DNA of 64,000 nucleotides from Nitratidesulfovibrio termitidis HI1 (GTDB lineage: Bacteria > Desulfobacterota > Desulfovibrionia > Desulfovibrionales > Desulfovibrionaceae): positions 1,858,250 through 1,922,249 of the forward strand of contig NZ_KI632512.1 of NCBI RefSeq assembly GCF_000504305.1, read 5' to 3'. Below are positions 29,737 to 62,599 of this stretch, one piece after another. A program made the translations under genes and the position numbers. How positions within the stretch are numbered: position 1 is the first letter of the stretch; each line of letters opens with the position of its first letter. The notes under the pieces were generated by a model, which worked only from the letters and a program-made list of their open reading frames with translations, was not told the DNA's origin and made no database searches.

Positions 29737-31851
29737 CTAGTCGGCTACGGCAGGCTCCGGCAGCTTCGTATCCACTTCGGTCGCGGGCGCGCCGCAATCG
29801 CAGAACGAGCCCATGCCGTATTCCACGCGTTCCTTGTATTCCTGCTGCTTGCCGAGGTTCCAGCGGCTGACCGGGCGGTAGTAGCCCACCACACGGGTGT
29901 ACACTTCCGCCTCTTCGCCGCATTCGGGGCAGTTCATGTGCTCGCCGCGCAGGTAGCCGTGGGTCTGGCACACCGAGAAGGTGGGGGTGACCGAGATGTA
30001 CGGGATGCGCGTCTTCTGCATGGCCTTCAGCAGGTAGTTCTTCACCGAGGCCTCGTCGGGCGCTGCCTCGCCGAGGAAGGAGTGGAACACCGTGCCGCCG
30101 TTGTACAGGGTCTGCAACTCGTTCTGGTGCTCCAGCGCGGCGAACACGTCTTCGGTGAAGCCCACGGGCAGCAGGGTGGAGTTGGTGTAGTACGGCGTCT
30201 CGCCGCCGGAGGTCGCAATGTCTTCGTACAGGGCGCGGTCGATGCGCGCAAGGCGGTAGCAGGTGCCTTCGCCGGGCGTGGCTTCAAGGTTGTACATGTG
30301 CCCGGTTTCTTCCTGGAAACGCACGGTCAGTTCGCGCAGGTGGTGCAGCACGCGCTTCATCAGGCGCAGCCCGGCCTCGGTCTCGATGCCCTTGCCCAGA
30401 AGGTTCAGGCAGGCCTCGTGCCCGCCGATGAGCCCGATGGTGGAGAAGTGGCCCGCGTAGCCATTCTTGAGGTAGCGGCGCGAGAACGGGAACATGCCCG
30501 CGTCCAGCATCTGGGTGCACAGCTTGCGCTTGTATTCCAGGGCGTCGCGGGCCATTTCCGCGTACTCGGTGATCATGTCCAGGAAGTCTTCCTCGCCCTG
30601 GGCCAGGTACGCGAACTTGGGCAGGTTCAGGGTGACCACGCCGATGGAACCGGTCAGGTCGCCCGAGCCGAACAGGCCGCCGGTGCGCTTGCGGATTTCG
30701 CGCAGGTCCATCTGCAGGCGGCAGCACATGGAGCGCACGTCCTCGGGGTTGAGGTCCGAGTTGATGAAATTCTGGAAATAGGGCGCGCCGTACTTGGCCG
30801 TCATGCGCAGCAGCATCTTGCCGGTGTCGGTGTCCCACGGAAAGTCGGGGGTGACGTTGTAGGTGGGGATGGGGAAGGAGAAGATGCGCCCGTCGGCGTC
30901 GCCTTCCAGCATCACCTCTATGAACGCCCGGTTGAACATGTCCATCTCTGCGGCATAGTCGCCGTAGGTGGAATCCTGGAACTCACCGCCGATGATCACC
31001 GGCTCATTGGCGATGTGCCTGGGCGGGGCCATGTCCAGGGTAAAGTTGGTGAACGGGCTCTGCCCGCCCCAGCGCGAGGTGGTGTTCAGGTTGTACACCA
31101 GCTTCTGCACGCCCTGCTTGACCTCGTCGTAGGTCAGCTTGTCGTGGCGGATGAACGGGGCAAGGTAGGTATCGATGTTGTTGAACGCCTGCGCGCCCGC
31201 CCATTCGTTTTGCAGCGTGCCGAGAAAGTTGACGATCTGCCCGCAGGCCGCGTCGAAGTGACGCGCCGGGGACGCGCAGCAGCGGCCCTTCAGGTTGAAG
31301 CCTTCCAGCAACAGGTCGCGCAGGCTCCAACCCGCGCAGTACCCGGCCAGGCCAAAGGACAGGTCGTGGATGTGGAAATAGCCGTGGGTGTGGGCCAGGC
31401 GGATTTCCTCGGGGTACTTTTCCAGCACGTAGCGTGCCTGAACCGAACCCGCCATGTGCAGGATGAGCCCCTGGAACGAATGCCCCATGTTGGAGTTTTC
31501 GTTGACGCGCCAGTCGGACCGGTCGAGGTAGCTTTCAATCATCCGGGCCACGTCAAGGTAGGCCTCGTTCTGGCTGCGCATTTCGCGGCGCTTTTCGCGG
31601 TAGATGATGTACCGCTCGGCCACGGCGTACAGGCGGGCTTCCATCAGCACGCGCTGCACAAGGTCCTGCACCTGCTCCTGCTCGGGCATGTCCACGCCGT
31701 CGAGCTTGGCTTCCACCCGCTGCGCCAGACGTTTGCCCAGCAGGGGATCCTTGATGCCGCTGGCCTTCAGGGCCTTGTTGATGGCGTGTCCCACCCGGTC
31801 CACGGACCAGGTTTCCACGCGGCCGTCGCGCTTGCGAATATGTTGGGGCAT
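29737..31851 (-). CDS. nrdD: Anaerobic (class III) ribonucleoside-triphosphate reductase
   Basis: Reduces ribonucleotides to deoxyribonucleotides without oxygen using a glycyl radical. The 704-residue protein starts with an ATP-cone (HIRKRDGRVETWSVDRV), which senses ATP/dATP. Active-site region NNIDTYLAPFIRHDKLTY and the family motif SRWGGQSPFTNFTLD follow. The C-terminus has the metal-binding CQTHGYLRGEHMNCPECG and the radical site RVVGYYRPV with glycine 656. The start is supported by GGGAG. The activating enzyme gene nrdG is not adjacent in this window. A cobalamin riboswitch lies in the leader, so expression should fall when B12 is plentiful and a B12-dependent class II enzyme, if encoded elsewhere, can work. 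Confidence 0.96.
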   Translation of the reverse strand: MPQHIRKRDGRVETWSVDRVGHAINKALKASGIKDPLLGKRLAQRVEAKLDGVDMPEQEQVQDLVQRVLMEARLYAVAERYIIYREKRREMRSQNEAYLDVARMIESYLDRSDWRVNENSNMGHSFQGLILHMAGSVQARYVLEKYPEEIRLAHTHGYFHIHDLSFGLAGYCAGWSLRDLLLEGFNLKGRCCASPARHFDAACGQIVNFLGTLQNEWAGAQAFNNIDTYLAPFIRHDKLTYDEVKQGVQKLVYNLNTTSRWGGQSPFTNFTLDMAPPRHIANEPVIIGGEFQDSTYGDYAAEMDMFNRAFIEVMLEGDADGRIFSFPIPTYNVTPDFPWDTDTGKMLLRMTAKYGAPYFQNFINSDLNPEDVRSMCCRLQMDLREIRKRTGGLFGSGDLTGSIGVVTLNLPKFAYLAQGEEDFLDMITEYAEMARDALEYKRKLCTQMLDAGMFPFSRRYLKNGYAGHFSTIGLIGGHEACLNLLGKGIETEAGLRLMKRVLHHLRELTVRFQEETGHMYNLEATPGEGTCYRLARIDRALYEDIATSGGETPYYTNSTLLPVGFTEDVFAALEHQNELQTLYNGGTVFHSFLGEAAPDEASVKNYLLKAMQKTRIPYISVTPTFSVCQTHGYLRGEHMNCPECGEEAEVYTRVVGYYRPVSRWNLGKQQEYKERVEYGMGSFCDCGAPATEVDTKLPEPAVAD

Positions 31852-32029
31852 GGGCAATGGCTCCCGGACGGCGGGCCGACGGAATTCCGCGCGCCAAAGG
31901 CGCACGGCGGCGGGCCGCCCGTGGTAGGGCGCGTCGCGGGGATACGTCGGTAACGTCCCCCGGCGCGCGGCGTGTTCCGTGAATCTTCTTGAGTCCGTTG
32001 CGGGCATCCGCGTGCCCGTGGCGGCAAGA

Positions 32030-32232: not shown

Positions 32233-32302
32233 CTAGGAAATCTTCGTGGCTGTTTTTCGTGGGGGCGGCGTGGCCGTGCGGCACACGTCGCCAATGCCCC
32301 AG

Positions 32303-32331
32303 CATGTAGCAAAACGGGGGGGCGGGTTCAA
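32303..32331 (-). promoter_or_regulatory. Probable nrdD promoter (minus strand)
   Basis: TTGAAC (32326-32331), 17-base spacer, TACATG (32303-32308), ending about 70 bases before the riboswitch core. The rest of 31852-32598 outside promoter and riboswitch holds only a short direct repeat of TGGCCTGTCCC near 32450-32480. Confidence 0.5.
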
Positions 32332-32531
32332 CAGTCAAACTCGCTGCCAGGCCCCCCGAATGGCACAGCCGCAGCCCGCAGGCCTTGCCGCCCTAGGCGG
32401 AAAAAAAGCGGCCAGCCTGACCAGCCGCCCTGCCCGACCCCACCCCACCTGGCCTGTCCCTGGCCTGTCCCTGGCCTGCCTGTCGAAAAGTGCGCCCGCG
32501 CACGAAACGGTGACCAGTGCAAGATTCACCC

Positions 32532-32558
32532 TAAAGCCTGCCCAAAACCCGCCGATAA
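32532..32558 (+). promoter_or_regulatory. Sigma-28 (FliA) promoter
   Basis: TAAA (32532-32535), exactly 15 bases, GCCGATAA (32551-32558): a perfect match to the enterobacterial flagellar class 3 consensus. It lies 41 bases before the flagellin-like start, so the gene should be switched on late in flagellar assembly. Confidence 0.9.
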
Positions 32559-32598
32559 GCGACATGAGGCGTAGTGCATCGCGCGCCGGGGAGCGGTC

Positions 32599-33426
32599 GT
32601 GGCCGACAAGTCGCTGAACACCATGCTGGTGGAATATTCGCTGCAACTCATGCAGCAGGGCATGCTGACCAATTCGCTGTTCATGGGCGGGTCCGTCGGC
32701 AAGTCGCTGCGCGACATGCTGCTGACCGAAAGCCAGACCCGCAAGGTCACGGACCCCACCGCCGCCGCGCTCAGCGGACGCCTGCGGGCCGACGCAGGCA
32801 TGCTGCGCCAGGCGTCCAGCAACGTGTCCGAGGCCAAATCCATCATGGACCTGGCCAACACGGGCGTGACCACGCTGAATGCCGCCCTTACCCGCATGAA
32901 GGAACTGGCCACCGGCGTTTCCAACGGCACCATGACCTACGCATCGGTGCAGGCAGAGTACAATTCGCTGGCCTCGCAGATCACCCAGACCGTGGCCTCC
33001 ACCTCGTACAACGGCATCGCCCTGCTGGACGGTTCGGCCTGGAGCAGCGACGACCGGGTCACCGTGTCCGGCGGTTCCGGCGCCATCGAAATCCAGTCCG
33101 GCACCGGCAGCTTCAACCTGGCCCTGACCGACCTGTCCTCCTACAAGAACGCCTTCACCAGCACCCAGATCGACACCGTGGGCAAGGCCACCACCATGGT
33201 CACCACCCTGAGCGGGTACATCACCACCCTGAGCACCATATCGTCCAATTATGCGGGGCGTTCCACGCTGCTGGACAGCCAGGCGTCATCGCTGGCCTCG
33301 CAGGCGGACATCATGGACACCGCCGCCGCCACGCGTGCCAAATCCAACGAAAGCCGTTCGCTGGAAGAACTGGTGCTGGACCTGCTGCTGCGCGAAACCG
33401 GGACCATCACCGACGAAGAGGCCTGA
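32599..33426 (+). CDS. Flagellin-like protein
   Basis: A 275-residue protein starting at GTG after GGGGAGCG. The N-terminus (TMLVEYSLQLMQ ... ASSNVSEAKSIMDLANTGVTTLNAALTRMKELA) and the C-terminus (SLASQADIMDTAAATRAK) are amphipathic and coiled-coil-like, as in flagellins, and the middle (about 125-195) is a short Ser/Gly/Thr-rich beta region (YNGIALLDGS). Key flagellin contacts such as the canonical N-terminal NT-x-LSA motif are poorly matched, so it may be a minor filament, cap-adjacent or junction protein rather than major flagellin. No other flagellar gene is adjacent, yet it has a perfect sigma-28 promoter. Confidence 0.8.
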   Translation: MADKSLNTMLVEYSLQLMQQGMLTNSLFMGGSVGKSLRDMLLTESQTRKVTDPTAAALSGRLRADAGMLRQASSNVSEAKSIMDLANTGVTTLNAALTRMKELATGVSNGTMTYASVQAEYNSLASQITQTVASTSYNGIALLDGSAWSSDDRVTVSGGSGAIEIQSGTGSFNLALTDLSSYKNAFTSTQIDTVGKATTMVTTLSGYITTLSTISSNYAGRSTLLDSQASSLASQADIMDTAAATRAKSNESRSLEELVLDLLLRETGTITDEEA

Positions 33427-33862
33427 GGGCGATCCGCCGCCCCGCCCGCCACGCCATCCGGCCTCCGTACGGACAATACGCGGCCGTACGGCTCCACGGT
33501 GCGTTCTTCCTCACAACCGCCTCTTCTTCGCGGAGGCAGCACTCACCCCGGAAACACGGCCCGTTCGGCGCCGCCCCTGCCGTGCGCGCCACCCATCGCA
33601 AACTTCCTTGATATTCCAGACAACTCCGCCGTTGTCCGTTGCTGCCCCGCTACGGGATGTTACGAAATGTAACTTGTGGCCCGCCAGCGTTGACTTCGTG
33701 CGGGTTCGGCGCGATATGCGCCTCGACGTGCCGGTGTGCCCGGCACGTGCGTACCCGTTGTTCCTTCCGGACACTGCCGCAAGCACGCGGGAACGCCAGT
33801 TCACAGACTCCGGCCCCCGCACCCGCGGAGCCAACCCTCGGTTTTCATGAAGGAGAACCGCC
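33427..33862. other. Spacer with small inverted repeats
   Basis: No gene seen. GACAAC-TCCGCC-GTTGTC and GTTAC-GAAAT-GTAAC are two small inverted repeats (about 33620-33675). A weak promoter (TTGACT at 33690, 17 bases, GATATG at 33713) could serve the exported hendecad protein that follows. Confidence 0.4.
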
Positions 33863-34312
33863 ATGTTGCAAAAAACGACCTCCCTGTTCGCCTCGCTTGT
33901 GCTTGCCGCCGCCGTTGCCCTGCCCGCTCTGTCCGCTCTGCCCGCTCTGGCAGACGACGCCGCGCCCGCCGATGGCCGCCCCGACCTGCGCAAGGAGCGC
34001 AGGGACGACCGGCAGGACCATAGGCAGGACCACCGCCAGGACGGTATGGAACGCAGGGATGACCGGCGCGAAGAGAACATGAAGCACCGCGATGACCGCC
34101 GCGAAGAGCGCATGGAACGCAAGGATGAACGGCGTGAAGAGCGTATGGAACATCGCGGCGACCGTCGTGAACGTCACGATCAGAACATGGAACGCCGCGA
34201 GGGCCGCAAGGATGATCGTCGCGACCATCGTGAAGACCGGCGCGACCAGCACGGGGACCGCAAGGACGACCGCAACAACGACCGTCCCGTACCGCCCGCT
34301 CCCGCCCAATAG
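33863..34312 (+). CDS. Exported charged protein with 11-residue repeats
   Basis: A 149-residue protein with a clear signal peptide (cleavage likely after SALPALA, about residue 30). The mature part is almost entirely Arg, Asp, Glu, Lys and His. Four to five units of 11 residues, of the form M-x-x-R-D-D-R-R-E-E-R, run from residue 62 to about 119. Such hendecads form long straight helices or right-handed coiled coils, and opposite charges spaced along the helix fit a single stable alpha helix. The function is unknown; a periplasmic spacer or metal/acid-stress protein is possible. AAGGAGAACCGCC precedes the ATG, which supports translation. Confidence 0.7.
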   Translation: MLQKTTSLFASLVLAAAVALPALSALPALADDAAPADGRPDLRKERRDDRQDHRQDHRQDGMERRDDRREENMKHRDDRREERMERKDERREERMEHRGDRRERHDQNMERREGRKDDRRDHREDRRDQHGDRKDDRNNDRPVPPAPAQ

Positions 34313-50574: not shown

Positions 50575-51177
50575 CTATACAGGGTACGTCACTACCACCG
50601 CCGCCATCTCTTCCAGGCTGCCCGCCGCCAGCGCCGCATCCTCCATGATCTGCCGCCGGGCGGTCAGCATGGCGCTTATCGGCTCCCACGCCGCCGCGTT
50701 GGCCAGGATGCGGTCCCGCATTTCGTCAACGTCCAATCCCTTCGCCGCCGCCAGCCCCCGCACGAAGCCCGCCGGGGCGTCGGGGTCGGCCAGCAGCTCC
50801 CGCGCCTGGGCGGCCTGCCGTTCCCAGGTCAGCACTTCCTCAAGCGGGTACCCGGCCTGGATGTACTTCACGGCGCTCTCGTACCCGGCGTTGATCTCGC
50901 CCAGCTTGTCCAGCCGGGCCTCCTCCAGCGTGGGCGGGCGCTGCACCGTGGTCCAGCCGCCCGCGATGCGCTTCCATACCTGCCGCGCGGGCAGGGCGAT
51001 GCCTTCCGGAGGCCCATCCAGGTACATCCCATCCGGAAGCACCGGACCCCCCGCGTCCGCAGGAATCTCCGCGTCCTCTGCTCCCTCCGGGACATCCGGA
51101 AGCGCCGGGCTCTCCGGCAGATCTATTTCCGTCTTGCCCGTGTACAGGCCGTTTTCGTCGGTGGTGTAAACAATCAT
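50575..51177 (-). CDS. Probable phage tail fiber assembly protein
   Basis: A 200-residue protein, last of the prophage late genes. An acidic proline-rich N-terminal part (about 1-60) is followed by the sequence VWKRIAGGWTTVQRPPTLEE and a helical C-terminal domain (ARLDKLGEINAGYESAV ... VLTWERQAAQARELL ... RDRILANAAAW), a layout typical of tail fiber assembly chaperones of the DUF4376 type. GGGAGG precedes the ATG at 51177. It follows the second fiber gene by 13 bases, the usual place for its chaperone. Confidence 0.7.
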   Translation of the reverse strand: MIVYTTDENGLYTGKTEIDLPESPALPDVPEGAEDAEIPADAGGPVLPDGMYLDGPPEGIALPARQVWKRIAGGWTTVQRPPTLEEARLDKLGEINAGYESAVKYIQAGYPLEEVLTWERQAAQARELLADPDAPAGFVRGLAAAKGLDVDEMRDRILANAAAWEPISAMLTARRQIMEDAALAAGSLEEMAAVVVTYPV

Positions 51178-51190
51178 GTGTACCGCCTCC

Positions 51191-52249
51191 CTATTTCGTG
51201 TAGATGATCCAGACATCCAGGGGCGCGGCGCCCGAACCGGTGGACCGCAGCATCAGCCGCGTGCCGCCCGTGCCGTCGATCCGGTACAGCCACGAGTGGT
51301 GCTGGCTCGCCGATCCGTCGTAAAAAAAGCTGCCCACGGCCACCTGGTTCGATGATCCCGGAAAGGTCACGAATCCCCCATACCCCAGCACCGCCGCCGT
51401 CCCGCTGGCGGCTCCGCCCAGGGTGATGACGGATATCGAATCCGCCGTCAGCTGCACCGTCCCCACGGTCCGGCACCCATAAACCCCGCCGCCCAGGCTG
51501 ACCTCGGTATTTTGCGCCCATGTCCACGGGTTGGTGATTGCCGCGCTGCCGGTGATATTCGTTGCCAGCGGGCGCATGGTGCACGGGGTCAGCACCGTGT
51601 ACGCCGAGAGGTCGGTGACCAGCGCCGCCGTCCAGCCCTTGCAGTAGGCGTCGGACACGCCCGAGTAGCTGATCATGGCGCGCGTGATCGCGACATGCGG
51701 GTACGTCCACACCGTACCCACGTCGCCCAGGATCAGACAGGCATACCCCTGGGGGGTCACGCCCCAGCGGACGAGCGGGATTTCCGCGCCGGTGGAGGTG
51801 GCAAAAGCATAGCCCCACGTGCTGGGCGTGTTGTTCTCGTTGTGGTAGCCTGTAACAGTTAGCTGCATGTGCTCCCGTGTGTACCGGTGGATGGAGACCT
51901 CGATCTGATGCATGATGCCCGATGTGTGCATCGCGCTTGCCGCGAACACGATGGCCCCGGTGACGCTGGAGGCCTTGCTGGCGTACGAGGCCAGACCCTC
52001 GACGATGCGCGCCTCCGTGGTGCCGCTACCGGCAGACGGCGTGGCATAGATCACCTCGCCCGCCGCCTTGTTGAGTTTCAGTGTCACCCCCGTGTACTGG
52101 CCCGACAGGCGGGCGTCCGGCACAGTGCCGGACGTGAGCTTGCCGGCGTCCAGGCTGGCCACCTTGCTGTTGGTCACCGCCCCGTCGGCGATCTCGCCCG
52201 TCGTGATGGGCTCCTTCTCGAAATCCCGCGCCTTCGCGTTCCAGTCCAT
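51191..52249 (-). CDS. Phage tail fiber/appendage protein
   Basis: A 352-residue protein. The N-terminal region (TTGEIADGAVTNSKVASLDA ... KLTSGTVPDARL) is the repeat-type stalk common in tail fibers. The middle is beta-rich. The last 110 residues, from TEVSLGGGVYGCR to LDVWIIYTK, match the C-terminus of the larger fiber encoded at 52586-54178 (EVDLGGGAYAMR to LDVWVVYRK), so the two share a terminal, probably receptor-binding, domain. GGGGG precedes the ATG eight bases after the preceding gene. Confidence 0.75.
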   Translation of the reverse strand: MDWNAKARDFEKEPITTGEIADGAVTNSKVASLDAGKLTSGTVPDARLSGQYTGVTLKLNKAAGEVIYATPSAGSGTTEARIVEGLASYASKASSVTGAIVFAASAMHTSGIMHQIEVSIHRYTREHMQLTVTGYHNENNTPSTWGYAFATSTGAEIPLVRWGVTPQGYACLILGDVGTVWTYPHVAITRAMISYSGVSDAYCKGWTAALVTDLSAYTVLTPCTMRPLATNITGSAAITNPWTWAQNTEVSLGGGVYGCRTVGTVQLTADSISVITLGGAASGTAAVLGYGGFVTFPGSSNQVAVGSFFYDGSASQHHSWLYRIDGTGGTRLMLRSTGSGAAPLDVWIIYTK

Positions 52250-52257
52250 ACAGCCCC

Positions 52258-52572
52258 CTACAGCACGTAGACGGTCAGCAGCCCGCCCGCAGGCACGCCG
52301 CTGATGTCCAGGTCGAAGTACAGCGCCGTGAAGTCCGGGGTCAGCACGCGCTGGTCGGACAGGTCCACAACGTTGTTGTCCCCGGTCTCGCCGTCCACGG
52401 ACAGCACGGCCTGGCCGCCAAGCGCCACGGACGGGGTAAACTGCAACACCGGCAACCGTCCGTCGCCGACCGGCAGTTGCACCAGCCGGTAACATCCGTT
52501 CACGGTCCCGTCATCCTGCACCGGGATGCGATAGGTGCGCAGCCCGCGCGGCGCCACATCGATACGGCTCAT
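52258..52572 (-). CDS. Small phage protein between two fiber genes
   Basis: A 104-residue protein of unknown function (MSRIDVAPRGLRTYRIPVQD). It is predicted to be mostly beta, with FTPSVALGGQAVLSVDGE and FDLDISGVPAGGLLTVYVL suggesting a small sandwich domain. It lies 13 bases after the large fiber gene and eight bases before the second fiber, so it is probably a fiber accessory or adaptor. Confidence 0.65.
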   Translation of the reverse strand: MSRIDVAPRGLRTYRIPVQDDGTVNGCYRLVQLPVGDGRLPVLQFTPSVALGGQAVLSVDGETGDNNVVDLSDQRVLTPDFTALYFDLDISGVPAGGLLTVYVL

Positions 52573-52585
52573 GCGATATCCTCCA

Positions 52586-54178
52586 TTAGTCCTTGCGGTA
52601 CACCACCCACACGTCCAGCCCGTACGGCTTGCCCGTGTAGGATGTCGTAAACTGCACCATTATCGCGCCCTGCACGGACATCCGCAGCCACGAGCGCAGC
52701 AGGAAGCCGCCGGACACCACGCCTTCCAGGCTGTGGCCCACAGGAAACGTGTCGTAATACGGCTCCGGCAGCGTGATACCGCCCCCGTACTGGACGATTC
52801 GCGTGGCCTCCATGTCCGGCGTCGTGATGCCGGCGGAAAAGAAACCGCCGTCGCCGATGATCCCGGTGGTCATGGCCACCCGCATGGCGTACGCGCCGCC
52901 GCCCAGGTCCACCTCGACGCCGCTGGGCCAGTCCGCCGGGGTCCACGCAAAGCGCTCTGCTGCCACCGCGTCCACGATCTCGCCCACGTCCACGGGCGCG
53001 GCGTTCATGGGCGCGTAGTACGCCTTGATGCACTTCACCACCGCGTAATAGGCGGGGTACGTGTCAGGGCCGGTGCCCCCGCCGCCCACGGCGAGGTCGC
53101 CCGTCCCCCCGCCTGTGGCGGGGCCCACGGAATCCGTGGCGGTCTGGATGGCGTCCTGGCCAGTGTTGCCGACGGTGCTGTTCGTGGAATTCAGCAGGCC
53201 GACGTAGTAGTCGTTCCCGTTCTCGCTCCCCTGGAACATGCTGGACGTCAGGTATTTCCTGCCGTCCCCGTTCGGCCCGCCGGAGCCCACACCAGCGCCT
53301 GTGTGGTACCGAAATGTGTGCGTATGCCCCGCTCCAGCGCCTCCGCTCACCTCGTGCGGGTGCGGCCCCACGCTCGACGCGCGCGTGCTGCCCGGCGTCA
53401 CCGTCGGGTCGCCGCCCTTGCCCATGTCCGCGCCGCGCGTAAAGCGCAGCCGCAGGTCCGGCAGCACGGCGGACGGGGCCGTGGGGCTGCCCGTCAGGTA
53501 CGTGACCAGGTCCGGGTAGGCCGCCCGCGTCACCGTCTGCCCGGCGCACACCAGATACCCCGGCGGCACCCTGTCCACCGGGAATTCCGCCAGGCTTCCG
53601 ATGGGCACGTAGGCCATCATGCCGCCCGTCTGCGCGATCAGCTCATCCACTATGGACTGCACCTGGTCTCCGCAGGCGCAGGCCTGCGTTGCGCACGCGC
53701 AGGCCTGCTCGGCGCACTCGCACGCCTGGTCCGCACACTCGCATGCGTCCTCGCGCGCCTTCAGTAGTTCCTGAACGATGCCGCCGGGACCATAGGATCC
53801 GTCCGGCGGCATCAGCAGCGCCCGCCCCATTTCCTCGGTCAGCTCCTGGGTGATGGCCACCACCTTGTCGAAGTCCGTTTCCACGGTACGGCTGGGAAAC
53901 TTCCCCCCCTCCGGATATTCGGTCTCCTGGGTGCGCGTGGTGTGGCGGCGGATCACCAGATGCAGCCCCAGCGGCGGCGGCTGTTCGAAAACAACCGTGC
54001 CTCCGGCCTGCTGCTGCGCGCCGAAGACCGCGTAGCCGGATGTAATGAACGTCTCCGCGCCGCCTGGGCTCACCGTGCTCACGACCAGGTGCGCCGGGTC
54101 GAAGAAAAAGAACGGCACGGGAAACGTCGTTCCCCCCGTCGTGTCGTACACCACCTTCACGTCCTGCCCGGTAATCAT
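52586..54178 (-). CDS. Phage tail fiber with T7-type N-terminus, Cys-heptad segment and collar domain
   Basis: A 530-residue fiber. Residues 1-120 resemble the virion-attachment domain of T7 gp17 (VKVVYDTTGGTTFPVPFFFF ... RTVETDFDKVVAITQEL). Residues 145-171 hold four consecutive heptads each with two cysteines (ACECADQ, ACECAEQ, ACACATQ, ACACGDQ). A phage collar domain (VPPGYLVCAGQTVTRAAYPD) follows at about 190-260, then a Gly/Thr-rich shaft with HPHEVSGGAGAGHTHTF, and the shared C-terminal domain (from about 410). The ATG overlaps the preceding stop by four bases. It should bind the host surface. Confidence 0.85.
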   Translation of the reverse strand: MITGQDVKVVYDTTGGTTFPVPFFFFDPAHLVVSTVSPGGAETFITSGYAVFGAQQQAGGTVVFEQPPPLGLHLVIRRHTTRTQETEYPEGGKFPSRTVETDFDKVVAITQELTEEMGRALLMPPDGSYGPGGIVQELLKAREDACECADQACECAEQACACATQACACGDQVQSIVDELIAQTGGMMAYVPIGSLAEFPVDRVPPGYLVCAGQTVTRAAYPDLVTYLTGSPTAPSAVLPDLRLRFTRGADMGKGGDPTVTPGSTRASSVGPHPHEVSGGAGAGHTHTFRYHTGAGVGSGGPNGDGRKYLTSSMFQGSENGNDYYVGLLNSTNSTVGNTGQDAIQTATDSVGPATGGGTGDLAVGGGGTGPDTYPAYYAVVKCIKAYYAPMNAAPVDVGEIVDAVAAERFAWTPADWPSGVEVDLGGGAYAMRVAMTTGIIGDGGFFSAGITTPDMEATRIVQYGGGITLPEPYYDTFPVGHSLEGVVSGGFLLRSWLRMSVQGAIMVQFTTSYTGKPYGLDVWVVYRKD

Positions 54179-57100
54179 CTGAAACCGCCTCCGCGCCGCA
54201 CCACCTTGCTGGGCGTCAGGTCAACCGGCCCCAGTTGCAGGTACGTCTGGTTGTATTCTTCCCGCAGCTTCCTTTCCGACCTGGCCAGCGTGCCCGGCGA
54301 AAGTGCCTCGCGGATGTGGAACAGCAGCAGGTAGTCCAGTGCCCCGCGCGTGTACCACAGGTTGATGAAGGGCGTGTTGTTGATGCCAAGCCGCAGCGCG
54401 TCCTCCCCGGCCCCCTCGAATTCGCCCCGCACCAGTTGCCCGGAGATGGGCAGTACCTGCGAGGCCAGCGTGGGCAGCGGCCCCAGCAGGGCGCTGGCGG
54501 CCTCGGAGCCAAACCGGTTCTTCACGCCCAGGAAGTAGTCACCAAAGATGCCCAACCCGCCGGACTGCACGGCAGCAGCCATCCACGTTTCCGGCTTCAT
54601 GGGGTCACGGGGCTGTCGCCCCTTGGCCAGGTCCTTGGCGGTCATGGCCACGTAGCCCATGAGTACCGACCCGGCCACGGCGTGCACCATGCCCGGCATG
54701 TCGGCCAGGATGCGTTGCTCGTGCCCGGCCTGCTGCCAGCGCATTTCCCGCAGAAAGCGCTGGCCGTACACCGCGCTGAACGACTTGAACTGAAGGACGC
54801 TGCGCAGTACTTCGCCCACCACTGTGCCGGGCCGCGTGCCCTGGTACATCAGCGCCCGCGTCTTCTCGTCCGGCTCCAGCACGGCGTACCGAGTCTCGTC
54901 GGCGTAATAGCCCATCACGTCGGTGACCAGGTCACGCCGCAGCCGGTCCAGTTCCCGCGCCCTTCCGGCCTCCCATGTGGCCACCGCATCGGCATGCTTG
55001 GCTTTGGCTTTCTCCACACGAATAGCGAAGTCTTCAGCCTTTTCTTTATTGAGCCGCTCCGGTTCGACGTACTTAGGCTGCTTCCCTTTCCACTCTACGG
55101 TAGACTTCGTATGTCTTTCCTTGGCCCTCTCTACTCGCGTGGCAAACCGTTCATCGCTTTCATCATCACGCCGTATTGGCTCCTCGTACTTCGGCTCCCG
55201 ACCTTCCCACTTCTTCGTGGCCTCGCCGTATCGTTTCTTAGCGCTCTCCACACGAGCCAAAAACTCACCATCGCTTTCCGTTCTTAGGGATGGCTCCACA
55301 TAATGCGGTCGCCCAGAGTCAGAATAGGATTCGCGCAGCAGGTGCTCCACGTCGGCGTCCCCCAGGTCGAACGCCCGTTCGGGCACCACGTAGTGCCTCC
55401 CGTCAGGACCAACCTGCACCAGACGGCGCATCAGGTCCCAACGGTCCTCCAGGCCATGCCTGCGCAGGCTCGCGGCCATGTGCTCGTCCAACTCGCGGAA
55501 TGGCGTCTCCGCGTGTTCCGCCAGCCGGTTGGACAGATAGTGCGTGTAGGCGGCCTTGTGCCCCTCGGTCCACGCATCCAGGCCGGAGTACCGGAAGAAC
55601 GTGTTCATCCAGCGGCTCATGCCCCCACCGGGGTCGCCTTCCAGCATGCCGAAACGATCATGCAGGTCCCGCAGAAAGCCTTCCGAATACACCCCAAGCG
55701 CCCGGCCCAGTTCCTTCTGCTCCGGGCTAGCAAGGCGTTCCAGCCGCATGTCGAACGCCAGCCGCCACGCGGACAGCAGGTTCTCGCCATTGTGGCGCAG
55801 GTTCGCGGCCTTCACGAACACGTCAGCGAACGCGGAAAGCACCGCCCCCCCCAGCTTGGCCATGCTGATGACGCCCCGCGCCCCGGCGGCCATCCTGGCC
55901 ATGTTCACGTTGACGGGGCTGCTCGACTCGCCGGACAGCGCCTTGTAGTAATTGGCAAGCCGCCCGTGGCCGTCGCCGGTCCAGGCTTTTTGAATCTTGG
56001 AAATCTCGGCCCCCCGCACGCCCGCCAGGGTGCTTTCCAGCGTGGCCCGTGCCCGCGCGGCTGCCGCATCGTCTCCGCGTCCGGCGGCATCGGCGTATTC
56101 CGCCTCCACTCTTTCCAGCTTCCGCGCGGTGTCCCCCCCGACCGCCTGACGGATGGCCTCCGCCGGAGCCTCGCGCAGCCTGCGTATCTCGGCCTCCAGC
56201 AGCGATCCGATCATGGCTTCGGGATTGGGGCCGAACGTCTCCATCAGGGCCAGCTTGCGCGCTCCCGCGCTCAACTGCCCCAGCACGGCGTCGCCGATGT
56301 GCCCCCGTCCATATTCCCGATGGTACTCAATGGCCGCGTCCGCATCGCGGAAGTGCAGCACCCGCTCCTTCTCCATCCCCCGCGCGATGGAGCCGGGCCG
56401 CCGAAACATTATCCCCTGCTCACGAAGCGTGAGTTTACGATCGCGACCAGTGACAATCGTTGTCCAAATTTCCGCTAACGCCGTACGGCGCTGCATTCCC
56501 AATACATAATCTCGATTCTCTTCCCATTTTACTATGGCACGCTTATGCTCGCCTTCTTCCACCGCCACGCGTGATGTGTAATCCTCATCGCTCTCGCCAC
56601 GTCGTGCCGGTTCTTTATACTCCGGCTTCCTATCGTTCCATGCGGTCAAGGATTCGGAGTGGCGCACCTTTGCCCTTTCAACGCGTGCGTCAAACGCATC
56701 ATCGCTTTCCCATGCCCTACGTTTCGGCAGTTCATATTTCGGCTTCCTTTCTTCCCATTTCTTCACTGCTAAGGCATGCCGCGTTTTAGCATCTTCCACA
56801 CGTACAGCAAAATGTTCGTCGCTTTCCCCCTTTCGCTTCGGCACATTGTATTCCGGAGCGCCTTGGCGCCAGTCGTTGCCCAACTCCCCCCCGAGGCTCC
56901 GCTCCCAATCCAGGCGGGGCAGCATGTGCTCAATCCACGCCGTCTCTCCCGCCGCCAGCAGCTTGGCCGCGTCGTGCGACTGCGGGGCGTATCCATCCAG
57001 CCGCCCGATGTTGGCCCCGGCCTCGTTCAGGCGCTGACGGTTCCTTTCCAGCCAGGATGAGAAAACGTCGGCCACCTGGCGGGCGGTCCCGTCGCCGGTG

Positions 57101-57588
57101 GCTCCGGGTTGCAGCATCTCCCGCAACACCTGCTCGCCGAAAGCCCGGTCGCCCCGCAGCAGTTCGGCGGCACCCTCGATACGATCCAGGTCCCGCGCCA
57201 CGCCCCCGGAATATTCCTTCATGATGCCCGCGAATCTCGCGCTGGCGGACTTCCGGCTGCCCGCGAACCGCTGATGCGACCCCACCAGCAGCGCAGTCAT
57301 GCCGTCCAGGAACGTTGCCCCGTCCTGACGCATGGCGGCCAGTGAATCCTCCAGCGCATCGCGCCGCAGAATGGTAATGGCGGCCTGACGGCGCCGCATG
57401 GCTGCCTCCACCCTAGACGCCTCCGCGCGGTCCATGATGCGCCGCGCCAGTTGCGCCTCGCGCGAAACGACGCCACTGGGCATTTCCTCCCGTGCGTCCT
57501 CCAGCATGCCGTCCACCAGGCGGGTGGCTTCGTCCGGCATCGCCCCGGCGTTTACCGCCGCCCGCACGCAATCGTCACGGCTGGCCAT
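54175..57588 (-). CDS. Large internal virion protein with two repeat insertions
   Basis: A 1137-residue protein in the position of T7 gp16, presumably ejected with the DNA. It is mostly helical; the C-terminal part has hydrophobic stretches (VAGSVLMGYVAMTA near 971-984, GGLGIFGDYFLG near 1010-1021). Residues 244-358 and 760-875 are each three tandem copies of a 38-39 residue unit (x-P-K-Y-x-x-P-x-R-R ... ESDE-x-F-x-x-RVE-x-AK-x-RH ... KWE-x-R). The DNA of both blocks has about 52-53% GC against about 67% around them. Function of the repeats is unknown. The ATG overlaps the preceding stop by one base. Confidence 0.8.
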   Translation of the reverse strand: MASRDDCVRAAVNAGAMPDEATRLVDGMLEDAREEMPSGVVSREAQLARRIMDRAEASRVEAAMRRRQAAITILRRDALEDSLAAMRQDGATFLDGMTALLVGSHQRFAGSRKSASARFAGIMKEYSGGVARDLDRIEGAAELLRGDRAFGEQVLREMLQPGATGDGTARQVADVFSSWLERNRQRLNEAGANIGRLDGYAPQSHDAAKLLAAGETAWIEHMLPRLDWERSLGGELGNDWRQGAPEYNVPKRKGESDEHFAVRVEDAKTRHALAVKKWEERKPKYELPKRRAWESDDAFDARVERAKVRHSESLTAWNDRKPEYKEPARRGESDEDYTSRVAVEEGEHKRAIVKWEENRDYVLGMQRRTALAEIWTTIVTGRDRKLTLREQGIMFRRPGSIARGMEKERVLHFRDADAAIEYHREYGRGHIGDAVLGQLSAGARKLALMETFGPNPEAMIGSLLEAEIRRLREAPAEAIRQAVGGDTARKLERVEAEYADAAGRGDDAAAARARATLESTLAGVRGAEISKIQKAWTGDGHGRLANYYKALSGESSSPVNVNMARMAAGARGVISMAKLGGAVLSAFADVFVKAANLRHNGENLLSAWRLAFDMRLERLASPEQKELGRALGVYSEGFLRDLHDRFGMLEGDPGGGMSRWMNTFFRYSGLDAWTEGHKAAYTHYLSNRLAEHAETPFRELDEHMAASLRRHGLEDRWDLMRRLVQVGPDGRHYVVPERAFDLGDADVEHLLRESYSDSGRPHYVEPSLRTESDGEFLARVESAKKRYGEATKKWEGREPKYEEPIRRDDESDERFATRVERAKERHTKSTVEWKGKQPKYVEPERLNKEKAEDFAIRVEKAKAKHADAVATWEAGRARELDRLRRDLVTDVMGYYADETRYAVLEPDEKTRALMYQGTRPGTVVGEVLRSVLQFKSFSAVYGQRFLREMRWQQAGHEQRILADMPGMVHAVAGSVLMGYVAMTAKDLAKGRQPRDPMKPETWMAAAVQSGGLGIFGDYFLGVKNRFGSEAASALLGPLPTLASQVLPISGQLVRGEFEGAGEDALRLGINNTPFINLWYTRGALDYLLLFHIREALSPGTLARSERKLREEYNQTYLQLGPVDLTPSKVVRRGGGFR
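54964..55311 (-). repeat. Second triplet of the 38-39 residue low-GC repeat
   Basis: Codes for residues 760-797, 798-836 and 837-875 of the large internal virion protein. Units begin RPHYVEP, EPKYEEP and QPKYVEP and end KKWEGR, VEWKGK and ATWEAG. By hand count 55021-55320 is about 53% GC, versus 67% in the adjoining 55381-55440. Confidence 0.85.
56512..56859 (-). repeat. First triplet of the 38-39 residue low-GC repeat
   Basis: Codes for residues 244-281, 282-320 and 321-358. Units begin APEYNVP, KPKYELP and KPEYKEP and end KKWEER, TAWNDR and VKWEEN. By hand count 56521-56820 is about 52% GC. Low GC continues to about 56405, past the last recognisable unit. Confidence 0.85.
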
Positions 57589-59417
57589 TACACCGCCTCC
57601 AGGATGCAGCCCAACAGTTGCAGGGCCACGTTTTCCAGTTCATCCACTCGCGCCGCGTCCAGGGCGGCCCGCTCAAGTTCGGCCACGGCTTCGGGGTCGG
57701 CCCGCCCCTCGGCGCGCAGCCGCTCCACCTCGGCGTCGCGAAACCGGTTGATTGCCCCGGCGTCTCCTGTTCCTTCGGCATCACGCACTGCCTCGCGGGG
57801 GCTGCTCCAGTCCACGGATGTCTTGCCTTCGGCCTGCCGGTGCGCTATGTTTTCCCTACCAGGCGCGCCTGGTGTGTGCCCCTGCGGACTGCGGCCAGAG
57901 CGATGAGGAAGCTCCCCGCCAGTACCCTCCGGGACGGCGGGAAACCGCCCCGGAGCGGATTCCGCAGGGGTTCTTCTTTGGGAAACCGCCGCGCGTTCGC
58001 GCCCTTCGGGGCGGACATGCATGGTCACCAGCATGCCGCTGCCATCCTCCATCCTGCCCTCGCCGATCACCAACTGTCCGCCGTCTTCGCGCGGTATGAC
58101 CCACGTGCGCCGCCCCTCGGCTGCTCCGTCCACCGGCATGTACTCCCGGACAAGACGCGGCAGGGCCAGCACGTCGTCGCGGGTCACGGGCATGGGGTCA
58201 ACGCCCGCCTCCCCATGCTTCACGATGATCTTCACCAGCCCGTACCCGGACCGCGACCCTGTTTCCGCCTGCAACTCCCGTCCCTGCACACGAATTTCGC
58301 CGTTCACGTCCACCGACGGTCCCCGCGTCACCAGCAGCGGCTCTATGTCCTCCGGCCGCAAGGCAGCCAGCACCTCGTCGGCGGCCTGCTGCGGCGCTGT
58401 CCGCGTGCGCACCTCGTCCAGCACCCTGTCATAGGCATTACGCAGTTGCAGCGCCTCGACAACGGGACGCACGTCGGCCGCATCGCCCCGGCTCACGCGG
58501 GACAGGGCATCCTCGAACACGCGGGCCATCCCGGCCCGATCCTCTCCGTGCAGCGTCCGCCGCAGCAGTTGCGCCATGTCGGAACCGCCCGGCGCATCGG
58601 CCAGGGTTTCCATCGTTTGCCGGGCCAGGCGTTCGGCGGCCTCCCCGTCAAAGCCGCTCTCGCCCAGCAGGCTGGTCAGTTCCTGGCGGTGCGGCTCCAG
58701 GTCGCGCAGCATCCGTTCGCGGCGCATGCCGCTGACCTTGCCCGCCACACCTCCCACGCCGCCGCCAATGGCCGCGCCGAACATCAGGTCCAGGGCAAAA
58801 TCCGACCAGCCCACATCGTCCCCACGCGCTTTCGCGGCGGGCAGAATCAGGGCATCGGCCATGGTGGTGCCTATGGCGGCGTCGGCTGCGCCACGCGCAG
58901 CCCTCACCGCAACGGAAGCGCCCTTGCCACCAGGCCCCACGAAGGGGATGAAATTCACCGGGTCGGGCAGATTCGCCAGCAGCGCCGCGCCAAACCCAAT
59001 GGCCTTGCGCCCCCACGTGTCCGAATTGCGGTCCAGCAACTCCTCCTCATGCCGCCGCCGGTCGTACACCTCGGACAGAATGCGCGCCCGCTGCGGCGTC
59101 ATGTCAGGGCGGTAGTCAATGCCCTTGCGAAACCACTCGCTGCCCCGCCACTCTTCCTCGGACAGCGCGTGCGGATGTTCCACCGGCTCCGGGTCCATGC
59201 CGTCGTCAAGGTACTGTTGCGTGGGGGCAAACGTTCCCGCCTGCACTTCCGCAGCCGTTACCCGCGCTTCCTCCAGCACCATACCAGGCGTCGTGCGCTC
59301 GAACGAATGCCCCATCTGCAAGCCGAAAAACTCCCCCGTACCCAGTCGCGAATTCTCGCGCCACAGGTCGCCCTCCAGGGCATCGGCAGGCTGTAGCTGG
59401 TACTGAAACATCCCCAC
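57588..59417 (-). CDS. Phage internal virion protein with possible PBECR-like nuclease domain
   Basis: A 609-residue protein. The N-terminal half has Gly/Ala-rich hydrophobic segments (AIGFGAALLANLPDPVNFIPFVGPGGKG near 139-166, FGAAIGGGVGGVAGKV near 213-228), typical of ejected membrane-interacting virion proteins. Residues about 388-475 (GYGLVKIIVKHGE ... VTRDDVLALPRLVREY ... GMLVTMHV) resemble the phage Barnase-EndoU-ColicinE5-type (PBECR) nuclease folds found at the end of virion proteins. The C-terminal 130 residues are charged and helical. The stop overlaps the next start by one base. The nuclease assignment is by pattern only. Confidence 0.65.
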   Translation of the reverse strand: MGMFQYQLQPADALEGDLWRENSRLGTGEFFGLQMGHSFERTTPGMVLEEARVTAAEVQAGTFAPTQQYLDDGMDPEPVEHPHALSEEEWRGSEWFRKGIDYRPDMTPQRARILSEVYDRRRHEEELLDRNSDTWGRKAIGFGAALLANLPDPVNFIPFVGPGGKGASVAVRAARGAADAAIGTTMADALILPAAKARGDDVGWSDFALDLMFGAAIGGGVGGVAGKVSGMRRERMLRDLEPHRQELTSLLGESGFDGEAAERLARQTMETLADAPGGSDMAQLLRRTLHGEDRAGMARVFEDALSRVSRGDAADVRPVVEALQLRNAYDRVLDEVRTRTAPQQAADEVLAALRPEDIEPLLVTRGPSVDVNGEIRVQGRELQAETGSRSGYGLVKIIVKHGEAGVDPMPVTRDDVLALPRLVREYMPVDGAAEGRRTWVIPREDGGQLVIGEGRMEDGSGMLVTMHVRPEGRERAAVSQRRTPAESAPGRFPAVPEGTGGELPHRSGRSPQGHTPGAPGRENIAHRQAEGKTSVDWSSPREAVRDAEGTGDAGAINRFRDAEVERLRAEGRADPEAVAELERAALDAARVDELENVALQLLGCILEAV

Positions 59418-59424
59418 TCCTCGT

Positions 59425-61452
59425 CTAGCGCATGGTTCGCGGACCGTTCCCGGCCCCGGCCTTGCCGCTGCCCGTTCCGGCCAGCTTCTCCTGGGCCAGC
59501 TCCAGCACTTCCCCGGCCGTCAGGCGGAACATGTTGCCCCGCGCATCCGCCACCGGGGCCTGTGCCACAGGGTCCACCAACACAAAGCCCTCGCCGTCCG
59601 GGGCGTTCACCCACACCGCATCGCGCCGCAGAAACGCCAGGTGGTCCGCCCGGTCGAAGTCGTCGCGGTACCGCCGGTCCCGCAGGAACTCCTCCAGCCT
59701 CGGCCCCAGGGCAGCCTCCAGTCCACGCTCCATGTCGCGTCCGCTGGCCTTGCCGGGGTCGAACACCAGCGAAAAGCGTCCGTCCACCAGCGGCTGAAAC
59801 GTCCCGTCCAGCGCTCGCGCGGCGGCCTCCGCATCCCCGCCGTTCATCCGGACCAGGTTGCCCAGGGTCTTCTCCATCTGGCGCAGTCCATTCTGGATGC
59901 TGACGTTGCCCGGCATGGCCTTCCGCGCCGCCGTGGCATAGGCCCGGTACACGGCGGACGTTCCCACCGCCTCGCGCGTCAGTTCCTTGGCCTTGTCCAG
60001 GGCGGGCAGTTCCTCGGGCTTGGCGACCGCCGCCGTCACCACCGCCTTCAGGTTGGCCACGTTCCTGGGGTCGGCCATGGCCGCAGTCACCGCCACCTGT
60101 TCGGCGGGGGTTATGCCCGCTTCTGCCGCAACCTTTCCGGCATGGCGGCCATAGGGCAGCAACACGTCCTGCCACAGGGTGATGCGCGTTGTGGCGTCCC
60201 CTTCGGCCCACTTACCGGCCAGCGTGGCCGCCTCGTCGTCAGTCAGCACGCGTCGTGCCCCTGCGGGCAGACCGTTGTTCTCCTGCAAGGCCAGACGGCT
60301 TTCCGCCTGTCCTTCCGGCGTCTCGCCCCCCGCCAACCCGGCAACGGCCGCCGCAGGGTCTTTCCGAAACAGCCGCAGCCTGGCGTCGTAAATCTTGGCC
60401 CGCACCTCGCGTTCCTCGGCCAGCGTCCGCCATGCCGTGGGGTCTTTGGTGTCCGACAGCTTCCCGTCGATGTCCGTAATCGTCTTGGCCAGTTCGGGCA
60501 GCGGGCGCGTGCGGGCATCCTGCCCCGCCGCGTAGTTGTTCTCGTACAGTTCCGCCTTGCGCAGCAGGGTTTCCGCCGTCCGTCCCTTGCCCAGCGCGGC
60601 AAAGCGACCAGCCAGGTCTCGCAGGGCAGCCGTTTCCCCGCCGTGCAGGGCCATGTACTCGGCATCCCCGGCTTCCAGCGTCAGTTGCCGGGCGGCCTCG
60701 TTGGCCCGCTCCTCGGCAATGCGGCGTTCATGTTCCCTGTCGGTCTCGTAGCGCTTGCGCGCCCTGGCCTGCTGCTCCTCGGACAAGCCCAGGTCCCCCA
60801 TTTCCCCCAAGGCACGGTCACGGTCCATGGCGTACAGGTTGTCAAAAGCCGTCACACGCAGCTTGTCCTGGGCCAGCCCTAGGCGCACCTTGGCTTCCTC
60901 CGGCCGGTACACGCCCTGCCCGACGGCCAGGGTGAATCCTTCCTCCAACTGCCGGGCCGCATCCCGCCACTGGGTGGGGTTGCGTTCCACCTCGTTGAAC
61001 GCGCCCAGCACGCGCAGGTCGTGCTGGTCCTTTCCGTACAGCTTCAACTGCCGGTGCTCGTGCTGGACAACCTCCCGCAGGCCCTGCGCTTCCCGACCAG
61101 CCGCCCACGCGGAGAATGCCTTCCTGGCTTCCGGGCTCATGCCTTCCGCCCCGCCGATGTCGGCAACCAACTGCTGGTGCCGCGTGCGGAAATCCCGCGT
61201 CACGCCGCGCGCATCGCCGCCCTGGCGCTGCTCCGTTGCCGCCGACATCCACTCGGCCATGGACCCGGCATACTTGTTCTGCGCCTCCACCAGGGCGTCG
61301 TGGTCCAGTTCCTGCTGCCACCGGCCCGCCAGCCTGGTCACGGAATCGCCCAGTTGGCCCAGCGCGGCGGCCACGGCAACGCCGGACCTGTCCGGCGTCA
61401 CGGACAACCGGCCGGACACCGGCTCCGCCATGGGCGCGACGGGTATCTTCAT
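59425..61452 (-). CDS. Phage internal virion protein (gp15-like position)
   Basis: A 675-residue, largely helical, charged protein (for example LGLSEEQQARARKRYETDRE and WQQELDHDALVEAQNKYAGS), with no cysteine-rich or membrane segments. Its position after the gp14-like gene and its size fit T7 gp15, which forms part of the ejection channel. I chose ATG 61452 (MKIPVAP), eight bases after the preceding stop; the upstream extension overlaps that gene. No catalytic motif is recognised. Confidence 0.7.
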   Translation of the reverse strand: MKIPVAPMAEPVSGRLSVTPDRSGVAVAAALGQLGDSVTRLAGRWQQELDHDALVEAQNKYAGSMAEWMSAATEQRQGGDARGVTRDFRTRHQQLVADIGGAEGMSPEARKAFSAWAAGREAQGLREVVQHEHRQLKLYGKDQHDLRVLGAFNEVERNPTQWRDAARQLEEGFTLAVGQGVYRPEEAKVRLGLAQDKLRVTAFDNLYAMDRDRALGEMGDLGLSEEQQARARKRYETDREHERRIAEERANEAARQLTLEAGDAEYMALHGGETAALRDLAGRFAALGKGRTAETLLRKAELYENNYAAGQDARTRPLPELAKTITDIDGKLSDTKDPTAWRTLAEEREVRAKIYDARLRLFRKDPAAAVAGLAGGETPEGQAESRLALQENNGLPAGARRVLTDDEAATLAGKWAEGDATTRITLWQDVLLPYGRHAGKVAAEAGITPAEQVAVTAAMADPRNVANLKAVVTAAVAKPEELPALDKAKELTREAVGTSAVYRAYATAARKAMPGNVSIQNGLRQMEKTLGNLVRMNGGDAEAAARALDGTFQPLVDGRFSLVFDPGKASGRDMERGLEAALGPRLEEFLRDRRYRDDFDRADHLAFLRRDAVWVNAPDGEGFVLVDPVAQAPVADARGNMFRLTAGEVLELAQEKLAGTGSGKAGAGNGPRTMR

Positions 61453-61460
61453 GCGGCCCC

Positions 61461-62087
61461 CTAGCGCGAACCCAGCGCCGTGGTCAGCCATCCGCCGCCC
61501 ACGCCGCCGGTCCTGTTGCCGTCAAACACATGCCCCAGCCCTCCGCCCGATCCGCCCAGCAGACCCAGGCTGCCCCCCAGTTGCAGCAGCTGCGGCACGG
61601 CGCCCAGCAGGCCGCCCAGCATCCCTGCGCCGCCCTGGTTCTTTGCCGTGGCGGCCTTCTGCTTCCAGCTCCATGCTTCCATTTCGCCCCCGTACAGAAG
61701 CTCCATGGCCGAAAGTTCCGCCTCCGCGTCGGTCAGCGCCAGCACGTCCAGGGCGCTGCCTTCGTTCACGTCCACCCCGCTGGCCCCGAAGGCGGCCCGC
61801 TGGCTGCTGGCCAGCCGCCGGTATTGCTCCCTGCTCGCGGCGGCCTGGTTACGGGCTGCGCCCATGGCGTACTCGGCGTTGGCCTGGTAGGCCCTCGCCT
61901 CCGCGTCGCTGGTCTGGCTGGACGCCAGGCCGCCCAGTATGGAACTCGCGGCGGATACGCCCATGCCTATCTGGCCGACGGTGCCCAGCATGCCCATCAG
62001 ACTGCCCATGCCGCCCGCCGCTCCCGCCGCTCCCGCGCCGCCGGCAAACAGGCTGCCCAGCGCCGCAATTTCGACAATGCCGCTCAT
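61461..62087 (-). CDS. Phage internal virion protein (gp14-like)
   Basis: A 208-residue protein. The Gly/Ala/Met-rich N-terminus (LGSLFAGGAGAAGAAGGMGS ... GMGVSAASSILGGL) is followed by a helical region (AYQANAEYAMGAARNQAAAS REQYRRLASSQRAAF split here) with FGASGVDVNEGSALDVL, the pattern seen in T7 gp14-like ejection proteins. The C-terminus is again Gly/Leu-rich. It may form the outer-membrane part of the ejection channel. The ATG overlaps the preceding stop by four bases. Confidence 0.78.
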   Translation of the reverse strand: MSGIVEIAALGSLFAGGAGAAGAAGGMGSLMGMLGTVGQIGMGVSAASSILGGLASSQTSDAEARAYQANAEYAMGAARNQAAASREQYRRLASSQRAAFGASGVDVNEGSALDVLALTDAEAELSAMELLYGGEMEAWSWKQKAATAKNQGGAGMLGGLLGAVPQLLQLGGSLGLLGGSGGGLGHVFDGNRTGGVGGGWLTTALGSR

Positions 62088-62599
62088 GCCTCGCTCCCCG
62101 CCTGTGTCACCGGCTCCTTCGCCTTCGGTTCCTTGACCAGGGCCAGCAGGTACCGGTCCTGGCGGTTCGGCCCGCACTGGCGCAACAGCCCCTCGCGGCG
62201 CATGCCCAGCATGCGTTCCAGCCAGTGCAGTGACCGCGTGTTGTCCACGTGCACCAGCGCTTCCACGCGGTGGCACCCCATGGGGCCCGTCAGCCAGCGC
62301 ACCAGGGCGCGCGTCACCCGCGTCAGCCGCAGGGGCACGGCCTCGGCGGCCGGGGTCGTCAGCGCCCACAGGGTGGCCGTGCCGCCGTGCAGCACCGCCC
62401 CGTAGCAGGCGATGACCCGTCCTCCTGCCTCGCCGGTTGCACCCGTCGGCGCCAGCAGCATGGTCCACGCCGGATGCCCGGCCCACGCACCGGCCAGGTC
62501 GGCCAGGTCCAGGCCCGCCAGGTCGGCCGCGTCCGCCGCGCGCAGTTCCAGGGACGCCAGGTGGCTCGGCCGGAAGGGAATCGTGACCACATCACTCAT
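62084..62599 (-). CDS. Phage gp13-like protein with GNAT-type fold
   Basis: A 171-residue protein with the layout of T7 gp13/DUF2833: FRPSHLASLELR at the start, GRVIACYGAVLHGGTATLWAL, then RVTRALVRWLTGPMGCHRVE and VHVDNTRSLHWLERMLGMRR, which is the pattern of GNAT acyltransferases. In T7 the protein is needed for virion assembly; catalytic activity is not established. Its start overlaps the tubular-protein gene by eight bases and its stop overlaps the gp14-like start. Confidence 0.75.
   Translation of the reverse strand: MSDVVTIPFRPSHLASLELRAADAADLAGLDLADLAGAWAGHPAWTMLLAPTGATGEAGGRVIACYGAVLHGGTATLWALTTPAAEAVPLRLTRVTRALVRWLTGPMGCHRVEALVHVDNTRSLHWLERMLGMRREGLLRQCGPNRQDRYLLALVKEPKAKEPVTQAGSEA

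Follow-up and report, generated by a model that had tools for sequence, protein, structure and literature searches.

The D0 domain is a highly conserved part of flagellin that lines the channel of the flagellar filament. Structures of the Salmonella filament and junction show the D0 domains lining the channel and the D1 helices buried around D0 (PMC12221982). The paralogues FlaE and FlaF of Vibrio vulnificus are reported to be secreted and not to occur in the filament (PMC6692518), and FlaC of Campylobacter is described as secreted and without a role in motility (PMC4863622). The protein considered here is likewise a flagellin paralogue, and its likeness to both of these systems is one of description only. 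In Caulobacter, FljJ is reported to be the one aberrant paralogue in a set of several structural flagellins; it makes no filament alone, is exported later and sits nearest the hook (PMC7591256). For D. vulgaris, deletion of fliA is reported to lead to defective flagellum formation (PMC3944678). Here, we describe a paralogue from Nitratidesulfovibrio termitidis HI1, located in a window (the whole stretch of DNA analysed) of 64,000 nucleotides, together with its relatives in the Desulfovibrionales (Table 1). No description of this family was found in searches of open-licence PMC texts.

Table 1. Features of the paralogue locus, with positions counted from the first base of the window.
Feature	Position	Strand	Basis
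Sigma-28 (FliA) class promoter TAAA-N15-GCCGATAA, exact consensus	32532..32558	+	Sequence; conserved upstream of relatives
Leader with GGGGAG Shine-Dalgarno-like stretch directly before GTG	32586..32598	+	Read from sequence
D1-core flagellin paralogue, 275 aa, GTG start, stop included	32599..33426	+	ORF, Pfam, structure comparison
Family-specific N-terminal module, residues 1-52, at the place of flagellin D0-N and spoke	32599..32754	+	Model, alignment, pN/pS
Flagellin D1 core, residues 53-250	32755..33348	+	Pfam, AlphaFold, structure comparison
Family-specific C-terminal module, residues 251-275, SLEELVLDLLLRETGTITDEEA at 254-275, at the place of D0-C	33349..33423	+	Alignment, pN/pS

The original prediction described a flagellin-like gene that stands behind a perfect sigma-28 promoter and has no flagellar companion elsewhere in the window. 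Both points hold: the promoter matches the consensus exactly, its site is conserved among relatives, and flagellar identity was found in none of the 14 ORFs that were Pfam-scanned besides that of the paralogue (40 window ORFs were crudely called). In a genome-wide search with Flagellin_N the 275-aa gene was likewise the only match inside the window. The promoter ends (at 32558) 40 bases before the ORF, and the CCGGGGAGCG stretch preceding the GTG is identical in all eight loci of the genus. No terminator-like site was found on the + strand in 32300-33900, and the stretch downstream of the gene folds no better than shuffles. A short way downstream of the gene, positions 33863-34312 encode a small putatively secreted protein with Arg/Asp/Glu-rich, MERRDDRREE-like repeats and no Pfam match over the cut-off. 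Near the window end, positions 50575-63962 hold a minus-strand run of phage genes for a tail collar fibre, a tail protein matching phrog_376 at E 8.5e-129 and a protein resembling an internal virion protein, which we read as probably belonging to a T7-like prophage; the 275-aa gene itself had no match in a PHROGs search.

The host genome consists of one contig of 4.26 Mb and has a single match over the cut-off to the FliA-type sigma factor model TIGR02479 (259.4 bits). The exact sigma-28 pattern occurs in it twice, before the 275-aa gene and before fliD, the latter identified by matches to FliD_N and FliD_C. When one mismatch is allowed, 11 matches are found, compared with 8 for a backward control pattern, so that an inexact motif alone is weak proof genome-wide and other support is therefore needed, which conservation among relatives supplies. 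Single-mismatch sites also precede flaG and one of the four canonical flagellin genes; the remaining three have weaker matches, with penalties of 2 to 4 (mismatches, plus 1 for a spacer of 14 or 16 bases). Two of the other seven single-mismatch sites lack a convincing ORF and five precede ORFs with no recognisable flagellar identity, namely ClpP, a sensor-like Cache/HAMP/PAS protein, a TPR protein and two unassigned ORFs. In the same genome, a single-mismatch site lies 40 bases upstream of a TPR protein with a response-regulator match below the cut-off (L060), and another lies 35 bases upstream of a long ORF with no Pfam match and with Gly/Asp-rich repeats that we read as RTX-like (L061), possibly another secreted protein of the late flagellar regulon.

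Relatives of the gene were collected from 113 loci, which gave 88 unique proteins, or 87 for the promoter count after one locus with too short an upstream region (L188) was dropped. Within 160 bases of the start, 17 of the 87 have an exact sigma-28 site, 41 a site with a penalty of at most 1 and 68 one with a penalty of at most 2. The counts expected by chance were 0.00, 0.00 and 0.23 when estimated on stretches elsewhere in these loci, and 0.03, 0.05 and 0.35 when estimated on shuffles; the rows are related by descent and are not independent events, and they cover several genera and, as coded by the tool, four families. The distance resembles that in the host, mostly 30-55 bases upstream of the start. 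Of the 19 relatives without a site at this threshold, 14 belong to two order-mate families (f4 and f5; L047 is among them), and in the f4 loci examined the gene lies downstream of fliJ, motE and truA and may share their transcript. In one relative (L089) the start was mis-called; from the next Met its two cysteines are gone and a promoter is found, which would raise the count of 68 to 69 of 87. This relative and five others of its genus (L090, L091, L191-L193) are shorter and strongly diverged, with an N-terminus reduced to about MDFFDQ; their C-terminal end (DPLLRxxGxI) nevertheless resembles that of the family, and a sigma-28-like site is present. The observation of a flagellin paralogue behind a conserved sigma-28 site is confirmed; what the protein does, we infer.

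The 275-aa protein matches only one Pfam family, Flagellin_N (PF00669; E 2.5e-13, 50.7 bits against a cut-off of 26.6), and the match begins at profile position 40. The core consists of Flagellin_N positions 40-137 in residues 52-146, a short beta middle and a returning helix (194-249). At E 0.01, Flagellin_N was matched in all 30 relatives scanned and Flagellin_C (PF00700) in none of the 30. An AlphaFold model, built with nine relatives in the alignment, is good for residues ~60-240 except 151-170 (means near 70) and poor at the ends, where helices at 2-30 and 32-42, followed by a link, make up the N-terminal module at low confidence (decade means 35-60 for the end helices, and up to 69 in a second model with relative L044 as query, whose ends came out slightly more confident at best). 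Comparison of the predicted model by Foldseek and VIA-align returned flagellins, chiefly over residues 48-250, with a best match of Z 16.6 over 180 residues at 2.6 Å (residues 52-247), and a profile of 30 relatives searched against solved structures likewise found flagellins, mostly in the D1 region, with a few alignments reaching into the ends. Neither Pfam nor the AlphaFold model revealed an added outer domain.

The ends were compared with those of the order's flagellins, for which 33 canonical ORFs were reduced by length, start and duplicate filters to 26 aligned sequences, or to 25 plus two divergent true flagellins used as controls (L117 and L094). Averaged over the 88 relatives, the family keeps 0.24 of the canonical invariant positions in D0-N, 0.09 in the spoke, 0.32 in D1-N (0.39 in the N. 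termitidis protein), 0.22 in D1-C and 0.04 in D0-C, compared with 0.62-0.77, 0.89-1.0, 0.53-0.57, 0.58-0.67 and 0.56-0.59, respectively, in the controls. Since the value for D0-N is about that for D1-C and near that for D1-N, loss is clear for the spoke and D0-C only. The family alignment also stops 14 columns short of the canonical C-terminus. By these alignments the family keeps the D1 core and has lost the spoke and D0-C signatures, and the earlier description of flagellin-like termini has to be reversed, the core and not the termini being flagellin-like. Given the low confidence of the modelled end helices, these may still pack in a diverged D0-like manner. The middle, which had been singled out as short, is indeed short, but this is ordinary here, since the four canonical flagellins of the genome are themselves only 295-299 aa long. 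The replaced ends show no sign of decay: in comparisons within the genus, residues 2-52 have a pN/pS of 0.27 and residues 251-275 one of 0.08, compared with 0.35-0.42 between them and 0.33 overall, so that by this measure the family's own ends are the most constrained parts of the protein. Ala57, Gly60, Arg63, Asn75, Asn138 and Gly268 are invariant in the 88 relatives, 99% of which also have Trp148.

When 40 relatives were combined with 26 canonical flagellins in a quick maximum-likelihood tree, for which the tool warned of L117 as a long canonical row, the family fell on one side of a long branch with an SH-aLRT of 100. In this tree the family is one clade separate from the order's flagellins. 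This separate clade, together with the presence of four canonical flagellins in the genome, supports the original prediction of a paralogue rather than the main flagellin. At least 86 of 247 genomes of the order carry the gene when the best 10 candidates per genome are scored, and none of them has more than one match at the chosen threshold; 86 of 91 matching genomes were counted, and the weak matches in the other five (G415, G417, G441, G026 and G491; best E 7e-23 to 6e-21) were left uncounted. In a sample of the phylum, five of 297 genomes gave a match, and each of them belongs to the host's own taxonomic family. A scan of one genome per species found nine loci, seven labelled as Desulfovibrionales or as genera that belong, in our assignment, to this order, and two labelled Proteobacteria bacterium; it used two peptide patterns only, and absence outside the order is hence weakly tested by it. 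Relatives occur in Desulfonatronum, Desulfonatronovibrio, Solidesulfovibrio and Desulfovibrio. The family is single-copy where found and has so far been seen only in Desulfovibrionales.

The gene occurs almost solely in genomes that also encode flagellins. Flagellin_C proteins are present in 85 of the 86 genomes with the family gene and in 125 of the 161 without it (Fisher p 1e-6 with kinship ignored; both counts are taken to concern the same 247 genomes), and the sole exception is an assembly of 490 contigs (G416). In an overlapping sample of 59 genomes the figures are 30 of 30 and 24 of 29. Conversely, because 125 genomes of the order have flagellins and no counted family match among their best 10 scored candidates, the gene appears dispensable. 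The neighbourhoods (38 loci, of which L043, L044 and L045 duplicate L073, L076 and L079, leaving 35 distinct) qualify the earlier description of the gene as solitary: it is so in the host genome, but in five of the 35 loci (L071, L074, L079, L084 and L047) it is the last gene of a same-strand array that begins fliJ-motE-truA. In L074, FliJ and TruA are supported by Pfam; the name MotE is our reading of an MgtE_N match below the cut-off. Elsewhere, truA adjoins the gene on the opposite strand (L083 and L050), cheW adjoins it in L075 and lies ~2 kb off in L051, and a chemoreceptor gene adjoins it in L069. Neighbours are shared at the level of clades, with nrdD in the genus and truA, gnd or nadE in other clades. 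At positions 29737-32007, divergent to the 275-aa gene, lies what we read as an nrdD-like anaerobic ribonucleotide reductase gene; six loci of the genus, counting the host's own, retain this neighbour, as does L069. With crude ORF calls no neighbour common to the whole order was seen, and the idea of reading function from the neighbours was rejected.

Flagellar axial proteins generally avoid cysteine. Cysteine makes up 0.01% of residues in the 88 relatives, 0.05% in 31 canonical flagellins and 1.37% in eight cytosolic neighbours, five of which were identified by reading alone; 87 of the 88 relatives, 26 of the 31 canonical flagellins and none of the eight neighbours are cysteine-free, the one exception among the relatives being the mis-called start in L089. 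This composition points only indirectly to export of the 275-aa protein. The reading we favour, and consider somewhat probable, is that of an accessory protein of the flagellum which depends on sigma-28, is exported and takes no part in building the core of the filament. As a class 3 flagellar gene it would be switched on by sigma-28 after completion of the hook-basal body, and its product would leave through the flagellar export gate, a route proposed because cysteine is nearly absent, the core is that of a flagellin and the gene belongs to the regulon. Outside the cell, the D1-type rod would pack with axial proteins. The family's own end helices would be unable to make the D0 tube of the filament, so that the protein would be a low-copy accessory piece and not bulk filament; normal filament growth is not expected from a D1 rod with other ends. 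The conserved ends would instead be read by a fixed flagellar partner, such as the export gate, a chaperone, the junction or the cap. Such contact is the simplest role for the new ends because they are conserved, and the constraint on them makes a partner more likely than a protein that is merely shed. More tentatively, the family could represent an additional class of flagellar axial protein, distinct from flagellin and from the hook-associated proteins: a D1 rod specific to the order, with a conserved end module of its own, that arose a single time in Desulfovibrionales and occupies a single defined position, at the junction, the cap or the base of the filament, through end contacts unlike the usual D0 coiled coil.

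Because conserved ends point most simply to a fixed partner, we prefer an accessory part to the alternatives of shedding, regulation or a role as bulk subunit. A secreted non-structural homologue, exported by the flagellum, released and acting in the matrix or on surfaces, would fit the sigma-28 site, the near-zero cysteine and the loss of the canonical D0-C, and FlaE/FlaF and FlaC (PMC6692518; PMC4863622) offer precedents by analogy; we nevertheless judge it unlikely, as the strongest constraint falls on the two ends, which suggests a conserved partner, and no added outer domain was recognised. Fainter is the prospect of a regulatory flagellin that stays in the cytoplasm until export opens and controls flagellin synthesis, by analogy with FljJ and FlbT in Caulobacter. 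One counted copy per genome, in many genomes beside several canonical flagellins, would suit such a protein, and FljJ is a precedent (PMC7591256); the promoter, however, is of the late sigma-28 class, and the family has lost the spoke and D0-C signatures, whereas FljJ, by the same account, is driven by CtrA and 49% identical to its sisters (PMC7591256); the present family carries a sigma-28 site and branches far from the flagellins. A specialised filament subunit near the hook, whose altered ends still make a D0-like coiled coil within the lattice, is doubtful to a slightly greater degree: a helix is predicted at each end and part of the D1-N and D0-N positions is kept, but the spoke and D0-C fall far below the two divergent true flagellins and the alignment ends before the canonical C-terminus. 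Since so little of the spoke and D0-C is retained compared with these controls, the minor subunit once suggested is improbable in an ordinary lattice, while a specialised, exported paralogue is still a candidate; the original prediction is thereby partly supported, right on the specialised paralogue and wrong on the termini. A functionless, decaying copy is very improbable, as divergence alone speaks for it and is contradicted by an ORF intact in 88 unique relatives, a promoter conserved in most of them and the low pN/pS within the genus, above all at the C-terminus.

The family matters beyond this locus, as a long-kept paralogue with swapped ends that retains D1 and a late promoter is a natural test of the roles of D0 and D1, which could be examined through the family for export, chaperone recognition and assembly. 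In sulfate reducers, annotation likely labels the gene simply as flagellin.

Among known systems, hook-associated FlgL (TIGR02550) resembles the 275-aa protein weakly, through the D1 region; an identity as FlgL/HAP3 was rejected at 23.3 bits against a cut-off of 127.2, and two separate proteins of ~500 aa in the genome are, in our reading of their sequences, FlgL-like. With PDB 3k8v and 3k8w, which we take to be the Sphingomonas cell-surface flagellin homologue, the protein has the D1 fold in common (Z 15.6 and 15.2), but the close match is limited to the D1 region, and 3k8v reaches the end only at 8.0 Å. The family is closest to bacterial flagellin itself (FliC/FlaA; PF00669 and PF00700), which it resembles in the fold of the D1 core, length, a sigma-28 class promoter and very low cysteine, and from which it differs in its replaced spoke and D0-C sequences, a much diverged D0-N, the lack of a PF00700 match and the family-specific residues Trp148 (99% of the 88 relatives) and Gly268 (88 of 88).
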